Assembly (NCBI RefSeq): GCF_003725735.1
Contig: NZ_RJTM01000094.1
Span: 1 to 64,000, forward strand
Direction of reading: 5' to 3'
Source: Sinomicrobium pectinilyticum
Lineage (GTDB): Bacteria > Bacteroidota > Bacteroidia > Flavobacteriales > Flavobacteriaceae
Length of the DNA stretch: 64,000 bases
Every line of letters starts with the position of its first letter. Positions within the stretch are counted from its first letter, which is position 1. Position numbers and translations under genes: made by a program. Below are positions 1 to 6,792 of the stretch, in pieces. Under the pieces are notes generated by a model. That model was not told where the DNA came from. It worked only from the letters and a program-made list of their open reading frames with translations, and did not search any database.

Positions 1-1534
1 GGTCAAAAGCAGCATAACTCGCATCGTTGGAACCGTTATAAAGCACCAACACCATACCGTCGAGAGAAGTATTTCCCGTTCCGCCGTCATAAAGTTCTAC
101 GAATTCCATAGTATCCGTTCCGGGAGTGTCGGCATCTATCTCGTTGATAAGAACGCCTGTTCTGTTGTCCTCTCCGTTGCCGTTAGCTGCCCCCGGTGTA
201 GGTGAAGCCGTACTGTAGGAAGAAGTGTTCCTTGCCCCTCCCGCTCCGTCAGGCATACGCTGAAGGGAATGGTTATCTTTATCACCTGCCCCTGCTTCAT
301 TCAGTTGAGGCTGGCCGGAATTCAGAAGCGTAAGCAATTGCGCATCATCCGCATCATCAGTATCATATACAACAGCATCAATAAGGTCTGTTGTGGTAAG
401 CGCGGTACCCTCCGGAAAGTCCGCTGCGGTACCGCTATACAATGCTACCGCATCTGCACCGTTCTGAAGGGTATTGCCCGGAAAAACAACGGATACATTG
501 GGTACATCCTCATTCCCCAAAACGAAATATCCTTCCGCATTGGTGCTGTATCCCGTAAGGTCATAAGCGGCATAACTCTGATCATTGGAGCCATTATACA
601 ATACTACCACCATACCGTCGAGGGAAGTATTTCCTGTTCCGCCGTCATAGAGCTCTATAAATTCCATTGTGTCTACCCCCGGTGTATCGGAGTCAACCTC
701 ATTGATAAGAATATTTGCGATGGGAGCCGGACTGTTGCCAAAACGGTTTTCGGCTTGCGGGCCGCCCCATATGGATGTGGCAAAAGCGGGATTGTCAATA
801 AAGGGGTTTCGGTTCCCCTGTAAATTTTCCAGTATATTATTCCGGTTTATTTCGTATTGCGAAACCGGGTCCTCGGCATTCCATTCCAGGAAAATGTCCA
901 TCATCTCATTACTGTAGACCTGCGGTCCCGTCCCTACGGCAGAAGGCAGACAGCGATTTCCGTAACGGAGGTACATATACATTACCATCCGGGCAACATC
1001 TCCTTTCCATTCATCACCCGGGTACCAGGAGTTGCTTACTTTTCTTGCATTTCCACTGGCATCGGCAAAGGGGAGATTACCTCTGTCTGCGTTAAACCCT
1101 ACATCCGAAGCCCGTAAATGATGTGCATCCGACCCGGGGCCAGAGGTTCCCAGGTTAGGGTTACCGAGTGATTTGGCAAAGACATGTTCGCGATTCCAGT
1201 CTCCCGTATTCCCTCCGTTGTTATCCTTGTCCCCGGTCCGGTCGGTCTTTATATTACCGTCATTATCGTTATAACCGTAAATCAGCAACACATTTTCCGG
1301 GTTATCCGGATCAAGGTCTGTTTGTTTCAGCGCTTCCCATACTCCGGGGGTGTAACTCAGTTCCGTGGTATGAGTTTGTGTGATCAGGGCGGCAAGTTCC
1401 GTTTTCAGGTTATTGCCCGTTTGGTTTACATCTGTCCCGTTGTAGTAAGAAGGTACCTGTGCGTACAGTCCAAGACTGTGACATACGAGGGTTACGAACA
1501 GGACAGACAATCTGGCAGCGTAGAGTTTCATCAT
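1..1534 (-). CDS. Secreted endonuclease I family nuclease with tandem lamin-tail domains (3' end outside window)
   Basis: The frame starts at a double ATG (1534 or 1531) and stays open to the left edge, giving 511 readable codons without a stop. Residues 1-26 form a signal peptide ending LGLYAQ. The endonuclease I (EndA/NucM-type) core lies at about 60-265: NREHVFAKS at 114-122 carries the catalytic histidine, followed by DAHHLRASD (136-144), RGNLPF (151-156) and WKGDVAR (176-182), all typical of this metal-dependent, non-specific DNase/RNase family. Two lamin-tail (LTD) beta-sandwich repeats follow, the first at about 274-440 and the second from about 460 to the edge. They are nearly identical over LYDGGTGNTSLDGM and repeat at DNA level with a 558-bp offset (1-154 against 559-712). 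Likely secreted for extracellular DNA scavenging. A C-terminal T9SS sorting domain would be expected past the edge but cannot be seen. Confidence 0.9.
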   Translation of the reverse strand, partial: MMKLYAARLSVLFVTLVCHSLGLYAQVPSYYNGTDVNQTGNNLKTELAALITQTHTTELSYTPGVWEALKQTDLDPDNPENVLLIYGYNDNDGNIKTDRTGDKDNNGGNTGDWNREHVFAKSLGNPNLGTSGPGSDAHHLRASDVGFNADRGNLPFADASGNARKVSNSWYPGDEWKGDVARMVMYMYLRYGNRCLPSAVGTGPQVYSNEMMDIFLEWNAEDPVSQYEINRNNILENLQGNRNPFIDNPAFATSIWGGPQAENRFGNSPAPIANILINEVDSDTPGVDTMEFIELYDGGTGNTSLDGMVVVLYNGSNDQSYAAYDLTGYSTNAEGYFVLGNEDVPNVSVVFPGNTLQNGADAVALYSGTAADFPEGTALTTTDLIDAVVYDTDDADDAQLLTLLNSGQPQLNEAGAGDKDNHSLQRMPDGAGGARNTSSYSTASPTPGAANGNGEDNRTGVLINEIDADTPGTDTMEFVELYDGGTGNTSLDGMVLVLYNGSNDASYAAFD

Positions 1535-1916: not shown

Positions 1917-2240
1917 TTTAGCTAAAAAGGGACAGGATTTGGCCAAAACGTGGCTCCGTTTAGGTGGGTCAACCTCCCGGTTAGGTAAAAAGATGTCTTG
2001 TTTAGGCAAAATGATCTCCTTTTTAGCTAAAACGATTCTCTTTTTGGAAGATGAGGCTGGGTATTATCCTATTTCATTTAAAATTAACGATACGTTGGCT
2101 AAAATGTTCTTTGTTTTATGCAAAAACATCTATTTTTCACCTAAACAGGTCCTTATTTTGACCTAAACTCGTTATATTTTGACTAAAAACAACGATTTCA
2201 GGCCTAAACAATGCTGTTTTTATTAGCAAAAGAATCCCCT
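1917..2240. repeat. Degenerate 21-bp tandem array of a near-palindromic TTTAGCTAAAA motif
   Basis: Units start at 1917, 1938, 1959, 1980, 2001, 2022 and 2043, exactly 21 bp apart. After a phase shift of about 51 bp they resume at 2094, 2115, 2136, 2157, 2178, 2199 and 2220. Each unit has a conserved 10-11 bp core (consensus TTTRGSYAAAA) followed by about 10 variable bases. Two cores are the perfect palindrome TTTAGCTAAA (1917, 2022) and one is TTTGGCCAAA (1938), which keeps dyad symmetry through paired changes. A 21-bp pitch equals two helical turns and would put all cores on one face of the DNA. Because 21 is a multiple of 3, a 75-codon frame inside (1939-2166) reads as a heptad-like repeat; this is most likely a by-product. 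The role is unknown; arrayed binding by a dimeric DNA-binding protein is one possibility. Confidence 0.75.
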
Positions 2241-2326: not shown

Positions 2327-3301
2327 TTATGCGTTCAGCACTACCCCTTTGAACTTTTCACGATAAGCCACAGGCGTGGTCCCCGTATTCCTTTTAAACA
2401 GCTTCCGGAATGATTTTTCGTCACGGTAACCTACATCCAGCATAATCTCCATGATGCTCTTATTGGTCTGTTCCAGCATTTTTTTGGCAGCTTCCAGACG
2501 TATTTTCTGAAGGTAAACTATAGGGGTAACTCCTGTTGCCTTCTTAAACCGCCTGACCATATTGCGCCGACTGGCGGGGACTTCGTTTACTATCTCTTCA
2601 ATGGTCTGTATCTCCGGGTACATTTCGTGGATATATTGTTCGATGCCCTTTACCAGTTCATCGCCGTGGTTGCGATTGGGAGTAAACGTACCGTAACAAG
2701 CCTGTTGTTCCCGGTCCATATCTATGGCAAACATCTTGGAAATATAAATAGCGGTCTCTACCCCGCAATATTTTTTAATAAGGTGAAGCATCAGGTGAAA
2801 GCTGTTAGTAGCCCCTCCGCTGGTATAGATACCTCCGTCTTCGGTGAGTATTTCCCTGGCCTGCAGCAAAACATTCGGGAAACTGTTGGCAAAGGCTGTG
2901 GTGGCATTAATATGCGTAGTGGCTTTCTTTCCGTTCAACAACCCCGATGCGCCCAGCAGAAAAGCCCCGGTGCAAAAACTGGCGATTTCTACCCCCTGCC
3001 TGTGCTGTTCGTGCAACCATCGGATGATCTCGCGGTTTTCCCCGATCAGGGTCCTGATATCTTCCGAAGCAAAGGCTGGGATCAGTACCAGGTCCGTACA
3101 CTCTACCTCCGTCACGGGTCTTGTCGTAAATTCGCTATACCGATCTTTGTAGCGTTCATCCGCACCGTAAAGCAATTGGATATCAAAGAAAGGAGGGGCC
3201 CCCGCTTCGGTGAAATACCGGTTTACCGACTGGAAAACATCCAGCATGGCAGCCACACTCAGCAGGCGATGATGAGATGTCAATAAAATAGATAACTCCA
3301 T
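2327..3301 (-). CDS. GlxA-family transcriptional regulator (DJ-1/PfpI domain plus AraC HTH)
   Basis: The protein has 324 residues, the usual size for the GlxA/FtrA family. Residues 1-190 form a DJ-1/PfpI (class I glutamine amidotransferase-like) domain with the nucleophile-elbow cysteine at position 110 in ASFCTGAFLLG and a histidine at 130 (KKATTH). In regulators this domain usually senses a small molecule or redox state and is not catalytic. Residues about 218-318 form the AraC double helix-turn-helix (EIMLDVGYRDEKSFRKLFKR, then the TTPVAYREKF end motif). Transcribed away from the SRPBCC/tautomerase cluster, which is a plausible target given the shared 303-bp intergenic region. The effector is not evident from sequence. 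Confidence 0.92.
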   Translation of the reverse strand: MELSILLTSHHRLLSVAAMLDVFQSVNRYFTEAGAPPFFDIQLLYGADERYKDRYSEFTTRPVTEVECTDLVLIPAFASEDIRTLIGENREIIRWLHEQHRQGVEIASFCTGAFLLGASGLLNGKKATTHINATTAFANSFPNVLLQAREILTEDGGIYTSGGATNSFHLMLHLIKKYCGVETAIYISKMFAIDMDREQQACYGTFTPNRNHGDELVKGIEQYIHEMYPEIQTIEEIVNEVPASRRNMVRRFKKATGVTPIVYLQKIRLEAAKKMLEQTNKSIMEIMLDVGYRDEKSFRKLFKRNTGTTPVAYREKFKGVVLNA

Positions 3302-4440: not shown

Positions 4441-4674
4441 ATGCCCGTATACAATTTTGAATCTACCGTGGAAATTTTCCGAACCAATGTCCGGGATGAA
4501 ATCATGGCTGACAAAGTGGTTTCCGTGCTGCTCGACAATTTTCCGGAAGCCACCATCAACTTCGACCTGGAAGATTGCGACCGGATATTGCGCATAGAGG
4601 ACATCCGTATAGATACGGAAAAGGTGAAGAACATTCTACATACCTATCAGATACATGTGGAACTGATCTTTTAA
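4441..4674 (+). CDS. 77-residue ferredoxin-like-fold protein, paralogue A
   Basis: A small cytoplasmic protein without signal peptide. Its alternating pattern (VEIFRTNV, helix, FPEATINFDLEDCDRILRIE, helix, IHVELIF) suggests a beta-alpha-beta-beta-alpha-beta fold like heavy-metal-associated domains, but the metal-binding CXXC is missing. It shares NFDLEDCDRILR, FxTNVxD and the overall spacing with the protein at 6559-6792, also 77 residues long, so the two are paralogues. Function is not known. It lies 58 nt after the tautomerase gene and 69 nt before the AraC regulator, so it may belong to the same transcript. Confidence 0.65.
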   Translation: MPVYNFESTVEIFRTNVRDEIMADKVVSVLLDNFPEATINFDLEDCDRILRIEDIRIDTEKVKNILHTYQIHVELIF

Positions 4675-6558: not shown

Positions 6559-6792
6559 ATGAAAAATAACATACGGAGCATAGTGGAGATTTTCAAGACA
6601 AATGTACAGGACGATATCGCTGCGGACAGTTGTATTCTCGCATTGTCCTATCACTTTCCCCATATCCGTTTTAACTTTGACCTGGAAGATTGTGACAGGA
6701 TACTTCGGGCGGAAGGTTACCATATCGACATCGATAAAATTATTACCATACTGAAATCCATGCATATACATTGTTGTATGTTTACAGATTGA
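6559..6792 (+). CDS. 77-residue ferredoxin-like-fold protein, paralogue B
   Basis: Paralogue of 4441-4674: same length and same order of VEIFKTNVQDDI, FPHIRFNFDLEDCDRILR, IDIDKI and a closing hydrophobic strand. The NFDLEDCDRILR block is identical in protein but differs at several third positions in DNA (for example GATTGTGACAGG against GATTGCGACCGG), so the duplication is not recent. The C-terminus is IHCCMFTD, with an adjacent Cys pair the other copy lacks. No signal peptide and no CXXC at the usual heavy-metal-domain site. Function unknown. Placed 44 nt after the outer-membrane protein gene. Confidence 0.62.
   Translation: MKNNIRSIVEIFKTNVQDDIAADSCILALSYHFPHIRFNFDLEDCDRILRAEGYHIDIDKIITILKSMHIHCCMFTD

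Follow-up and report, generated by a model that had tools for sequence, protein, structure and literature searches.

Curved DNA from helically phased A-tracts (PMC3940949) and the BrickBuilt elements of Porphyromonas gingivalis are the described systems closest to the array analyzed here. BrickBuilt is a MITE with a 23-nt minisatellite, a leader, a tail and IS5-type terminal repeats (PMC4596501). The arrays found in the window (the whole 64,000-nucleotide stretch of DNA analyzed) and elsewhere in its genus share helix-phased A/T-tracts and strong predicted curvature with the former and, like the latter, are non-coding, intergenic, multi-copy and composed of imperfect tandem units in variable copy number. 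They differ from phased A-tract curved DNA in being modular and dispersed, with fixed 21-bp units, an orientation switch and presence or absence at orthologous sites. They differ from BrickBuilt in a unit of 21 rather than 23 nt and in having no recognized leader, tail or IS5-type terminal repeats, and an orientation switch was not found in the BrickBuilt description consulted. A literature search, with most subscription journals outside its reach, returned nothing that describes arrays of this kind, whether locked to 21 bp or curved.

The 21-bp periodic array reported in the initial annotation is genuine, as the lag-21 self-match over 1909-2262 was 0.462 compared to a mean of 0.273 across lags 1-80, with 0 of 5,000 shuffles as high. 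When the full 64 kb was scanned at lags 10-30, keeping one best place per lag, the top 300-bp stretch was found for lag 21 at 1890 (0.48); outside the array, no listed stretch exceeded 0.383. Approximately 13 units (six forward and seven reversed) were placed at 21-bp pitch (Table 1), which bears out the earlier count of about 14. What had been described as one phase break vanishes once unit orientation is taken into account: the units flip mid-array while the 21-bp register runs on, with reversed starts falling exactly at 1917 + 21k + 18 except for 2167 (off by 1) and 2231 (off by 2). The same offset of 18 (mod 21) was recovered automatically in five of seven arrays; for the window array the automatic mode was 9, palindromic forward cores being counted as reversed, and 18 was taken from the unit scan, while a decayed array (C222) had zero units above threshold. 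In G003, a one-contig genome of the same genus, the array near 1612 kb folded at 21 bp into four forward, four palindromic (TTTAGGY-N5-RCCTAAA), four reversed and three palindromic units in a single register.

Table 1. Positions in the window of the array, its parts and the adjoining genes.
Feature	Position	Strand	Description
Whole 21-bp-register array	1917..2231		~15 register steps; autocorrelation, unit scan, curvature peaks at 1913 and (second model) 2061
Six forward units	1917..2042	+	TTTAGGYAAAA-like core with 10-bp spacer; starts in the unit scan at 1917, 1938, 1959 (weak, score 5.3), 1980, 2001, 2022
Degenerate middle	2043..2082		orientation switch here; register kept
Seven reversed units	about 2083..2231	-	spacer plus TTTTRCCTAAA-like core; minus-strand matches starting 2103, 2124, 2145, 2167, 2187, 2208, 2231
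Endonuclease I + lamin-tail domain gene	2..1534, runs off window	-	start faces array
DJ-1/PfpI + AraC-type helix-turn-helix regulator	2327..3301	-	3' end towards array

Column composition was analyzed over 50 orientation-corrected units, a set that retains six G005 rows cut 1-3 bp off register. The resulting consensus, TTTAGGYAAAA, is not dyad symmetric as first proposed, and G5 is present in 42 of 50 units. Spacers had been thought unconserved; their composition is biased at columns 13, 16, 20 and 21 (34 of 50 units carry G16), and one complete 21-bp unit is identical at two G003 loci. Both cores quoted initially as symmetric variants exist (at 1917 and 1938), but six of the seven column pairs tested show no surplus of symmetric changes. 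The mirrored pair 4-7 is complementary in 26 of 50 units versus 22.1 by permutation (259 of 2,000 as high) and pair 5-6 in 12 versus 12.5; pair 2-9 is the sole one leaning to symmetry (41 versus 38.6; 61 of 2,000). Because symmetric substitutions are not in excess, the arrayed dimeric operator has lost its main argument. The well-kept G5, the partly conserved spacer and the retention of the box in palindromic units as well speak for arrayed sites of a sequence-specific protein contacting one helix face every two turns, with curvature as a by-product of an A/T-flanked motif. We consider this rather unlikely, given the column-pair result and given that the scanned flanking genes have no Pfam family common to the loci (4 of 10 genes had no family); the curvature data described below bear on it as well.

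Six arrays from the genus were checked for coding, that of the window (1917-2240) among them, and none is spanned by an open frame, confirming the stretch as gene-free; a coding origin as a seven-residue repeat was rejected on that ground. A Pfam match was looked for in the 75-codon frame of the window and none was found, so the homology to a conserved protein that the initial annotation had named as counting against it was not seen in Pfam. A CRISPR array was rejected, as the cores are degenerate and the 10-bp spacers recur. An operator of the adjoining AraC-type regulator was likewise rejected, as the other loci flank unrelated genes (lumazine synthase, GAF protein and MauE). The distance from array to nuclease gene varies (383 bp in G000, the genome of the window and a 5.65-Mb draft, and 152 bp in G003), and the stretch just upstream of the nuclease-gene start is conserved in G000, G003, G005 and G001, array present or not. 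Upstream of this gene, at 1565 on the minus strand, lies a TAnnTTTG site that we take to be promoter-like. A simple promoter and terminator scan, which was set aside, gave seven promoter-like sites versus 2.3 in shuffles and one terminator versus 0.9. Elsewhere in the window, two related 77-amino-acid proteins (4441-4674 and 6559-6792, plus strand) with a common NFDLEDCDRILR flank an AraC-type regulator gene, the first being without a Pfam match. Around the 1612-kb array of G003 (L047 1-4541), several small genes look, by reading, like putative toxin-antitoxin pairs.

Of the six genus genomes, three were found to carry arrays, seven in total and spread over five intergenic loci, so the outcome of one decayed array only, which would have spoken against the annotation, did not occur. 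In addition to the window array, G000 carries C24:70250-70543 and C222:40531-40720; G003 has arrays near 619.5, 1612.3 and 3647.8 kb, and G005 has one at C25:596.2-596.5 kb. The C222 array was found by the curvature scan and has hardly any 21-bp self-match remaining; one stretch of it matched a two-mismatch pattern, and it was not listed among the sequence-model candidates scored. That sequence-model scan, in which 150 of 1658-2777 candidates were scored per genome and detection is incomplete, detected no array in G001, G002 or G004 (only E 0.016-0.08). With so few arrays detected (three, three and one, by an incomplete scan) and patchy among close relatives, a partition-like site is not supported.

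Occupancy varies from site to site. Among G000, G003, G005 and G001 (G002 and G004 being without a close regulator orthologue), the window site is occupied in the first two and empty in the last two. At the GAF-protein site an array is present in G000 and G005, none is seen by reading in G003, G002 and G004, and G001 has other, unclassified DNA. The ribH site carries an array in G003 alone among six genomes (by reading), and the MauE site in G000 only, the two closest matches (G005 and G002) being without bend; the fifth site (G003 1612k) lies outside this cross-genome comparison. Some orthologous sites are array-free though the flanking genes are present, and the maximum predicted bend in eight empty stretches is 0.08-0.22. 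Absence in close relatives, raised earlier as an objection, thus holds site by site, whereas the array family as a whole escapes it. All five loci lie, by reading, upstream of at least one gene, and none of the five sits between convergent genes, five cases that prove nothing. Occupancy this patchy speaks against an essential role.

Unit order is colinear above unit-shuffled controls, clearly so in 3 of 15 array pairs: G003 ribH with the G003 window site (score 146, control maximum 75), G003 1612k with G000 C24 (119 and 57) and the orthologous G000 C24 and G005 C25 (189 and 97). Several remaining pairs score highest in reverse orientation, for example, the G003 window site with G000 C24 (84), the controls covering forward order. 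Of the 239 array bases aligned between C24 and C25, 200 are identical, and the gaps (one of 21, two pooling to 21 with neighboring gaps and one of 12) only partly fit whole-unit indels. Such colinear copies at separate loci, together with dispersal in multiple copies as in a MITE (seven arrays, five loci) and patchiness at orthologous sites, favor a decaying selfish repeat, MITE-like with an internal minisatellite and without host function, in which 21-bp steps arise via slippage or unequal exchange; BrickBuilt, published as intergenic MITEs with 23-nt repeats (PMC4596501), is a precedent. We judge this reading unlikely, since neither a common terminal repeat nor a target duplication was recognized by eye among six arrays. 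In that comparison no common end was seen and the half-arrays were loosely inverted; empty sites exist for a target-duplication comparison, with flanks too diverged to fix the array borders.

The first two-core pattern search gave zero matches. A three-core pattern with one mismatch matched only G000, G003 and G014 among sixty relatives; as the backwards control matched six genomes, the G014 match was counted as chance. Model R1 reached E<=1e-4 only in G000 and G144 among 397 family genomes, a weak negative given that 13 candidates were scored per genome and the model recovered just one G000 C24 half-array out of two. In G144, of the same family, a near-identical tandem array of TTTTTTGGCTAAAGCGATCAC (L127 2675-3114) has a predicted bend of 0.65. 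A blastn search of plasmids and phages with the G003 1612k array gave no match at E<=1.

Predicted intrinsic curvature is the property common to all seven arrays. It was computed throughout with two wedge models (dinucleotide-wedge and AA-wedge-only) using assumed wedge parameters. Under the dinucleotide-wedge model, six arrays have a bend of 0.54-0.78 over 168 bp, which none of 60 dinucleotide shuffles per array reached (their values being 0.12-0.15), and it falls to 0.11-0.14 when unit columns are reordered with the periodicity kept (0 of 60 each). Under the AA-wedge-only model, which was applied to seven arrays including C222, column reordering matched the bend in 0-2 of 100 cases and letter shuffling in 0 of 100. 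The window array ranks first within its 64 kb under both models. Other scanned pieces were non-random, several being picked for holding arrays: the four peaks of at least 0.42 in 459 kb of G000 are two known arrays, the C222 array and one unrelated stretch, and arrays account for two of three such peaks in 396 kb of G003, with zero in 198 kb of G014 and ten in 309 kb of G689. The AA-only model places arrays first and second in the G000 pieces other than the window, and first and third in G003. As in phased A-tract curved DNA, the tracts stand in ~10.5-bp phase and the predicted curvature lies above composition controls. For tracts of at least 4 in six arrays, R is 0.64-0.82 at a best period of 10.40-10.45 bp, with 0-3 of 300 shuffles as high; phasing is weaker versus column reordering (1-26 of 300 for tracts of at least 4 and 4-27 of 300 for tracts of at least 3).

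The predicted bend is sensitive to the register between half-arrays. When 0-21 bases were inserted at mid-array, the natural junction lay within 1 bp of the optimum in all seven arrays, and 6 extra bp left a predicted bend of 0.16-0.30 where it had been 0.47-0.75. The way the box is presented differs among forward, palindromic and reversed units, yet their junctions stay near the curvature optimum, and the predicted bend of the C222 array persists although its 21-bp self-match is almost gone; both observations argue against arrayed protein sites. Random substitution at the observed divergence reached the observed bend in 0-4 of 200 runs in seven of eight directed comparisons (four pairs, both ways) and in 26 of 200 in the eighth, a test that cannot distinguish selection on the bend from selection on the motif. 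Retention beyond random expectation in those seven comparisons speaks against a functionless selfish repeat. Mean tract phases drift in one array (forward 10.4, palindromic 9.0 and reversed 7.3 of 10.5 bp), and the bend directions of the unit types are therefore similar, not identical.

Our preferred reading, to which we give roughly even chances, is that of a 'bend element', non-coding and dispersed. The 21-bp units span exactly two helical turns, and with a T-tract (columns 20-3), an A-tract (columns 8-11) and G/C midway (5-6 and 16), the bends of successive units would largely sum over ~300 bp. Forward, palindromic (clear in several copies) and reversed units succeed one another in unbroken 21-bp register. 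The unit order common to copies at different loci indicates that the element has been copied between intergenic sites; whole units may be gained and lost, and the bend is presumably what selection keeps. A pre-bent site could be offered to nucleoid proteins or RNA polymerase, and the element would most likely act on promoters or nucleoid structure. The nucleoprotein or structural role suggested initially is still plausible and is narrowed here to a static DNA bend; the partition site is unsupported and the operator reading weakened.

Folding of the array as structured RNA or single-stranded DNA was also considered. In four of six arrays the fold is more stable than in column-permuted controls (z -3.0 to -6.1), and versus dinucleotide shuffles z is -9.4 for G003 1612k, -5.5 for ribH, -4.9 for C24 and -2.9 for the window. 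Unit order hardly affects stability (z +1.6 to -2.8), and each of the two orthologous pairs includes one array without excess over column-permuted controls (z -2.0 and -0.5 against dinucleotide shuffles). As the stability excess is not conserved between orthologous sites, an RNA fold was rejected, and we regard function through such a fold as highly improbable. An Rfam search of five loci gave seven matches, every one below the gathering score.

A wider set of 21- and 42-bp arrays emerged outside the genus. Three TTTNGNNNAAA cores at 21-bp pitch with zero mismatch matched six of 395 genomes, and the backwards pattern at the same pitch also matched six (G480, G520, G539, G688, G689 and G695). 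The core is thus no more special than its control, and the pitch is what stands out. G688 resembles an ordinary near-identical repeat, and G485, G552, G618, G689 and G712 hold degenerate arrays with other spacers. A looser core, TTT-N5-AAA, gave matches in 10 of 15 chosen genomes, with 224 in G689 (control 79) and none in G000. A pattern-free scan of 316 kb of G689 (L181-L200) at lags 10-60 bp returned 78 periodic stretches, of which 49 have a period of 21 bp and 19 a period of 42 bp, one other being a run of N; extension to 130 bp gave 75 stretches (49 at 21, 17 at 42 and 1 at 126). The 68 stretches at exactly 21 or 42 bp correspond to about one per 4.6 kb, an overestimate from a biased sample in which many arrays lie at sampled contig starts and some pieces were placed on known matches. 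Stretches at 21 or 42 bp make up 14 of 20 in G485, 10 of 14 in G552 and 3 of 5 in G520 (pieces mostly chosen on matches). G014 and G042 have no excess at 21, and G038 has nine at 21 and more at 12, 33 and 54.

The arrays of G689, G485, G552 and G520 share with the window array an exact 21- or 42-bp period and the lack of a codon-position signal; unlike it, their units are mutually unrelated, their curvature is mostly weak, they are far denser and many overlap crude frames. In G689, the mutually unrelated units show a modest palindrome excess (15 of 68 at p<0.05) and modest predicted curvature (median 0.19 versus 0.15 with columns reordered). Three-periodicity at p<0.05 was found in 0 of 41 wider arrays, and 39 divergent arrays have a mean of 0.72 open frames versus 0.57 with columns permuted. 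Of 72 array midpoints, 30 fall inside a crudely called frame of at least 100 codons, which we take to be periodic open frames.

Among genome contigs, 13 exact two-unit matches were found, seven within lag-21 arrays and six outside. Five of the seven array-bearing TTTAGGYAAAA-core matches have a predicted bend of 0.44-0.89 (Prevotella, Prevotellaceae, Planctomycetaceae and two from one Spirochaetaceae assembly). The Flavobacterium macrobrachii repeat with this core has a predicted bend of 0.16, L054 being left out of the computation. Viral contigs gave 31 pattern matches; 21 was the best lag in seven, and only L095 reached 0.5 or more. Quite different cores are mixed in a single register in L058 133-682 (TTTAGGTAAAAC, TTGGGGTACGAA and TGTGCGCACGAA) and L065 5265-5498 of the Spirochaetaceae assembly and in L059 5837-6444 of a Prevotellaceae assembly. 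A second kind of degenerate 21-bp array, with a unit like AAAGYAGG...CCCCGTA and no predicted curvature (0.07), lies in L203 4494-4790 (G003:C1, ~644.5 kb).

Tentatively, and with less confidence than we place in the bend element itself, a process or constraint in Bacteroidia may build and maintain arrays in two-turn steps (21 or 42 bp) whatever their sequence, recurring every few kilobases in some lineages, with the window's arrays as the strongly curved branch. If this is true, 21- and 42-bp arrays would be a chromosome-wide architectural feature, not isolated repeats, and their locking to these periods leads one to ask what gauges a length of two helical turns. Should the bend itself be what is retained, the array would amount to DNA shape in portable form, specified by geometry and not by sequence, and what intrinsic curvature does in bacterial chromosomes would become directly testable.
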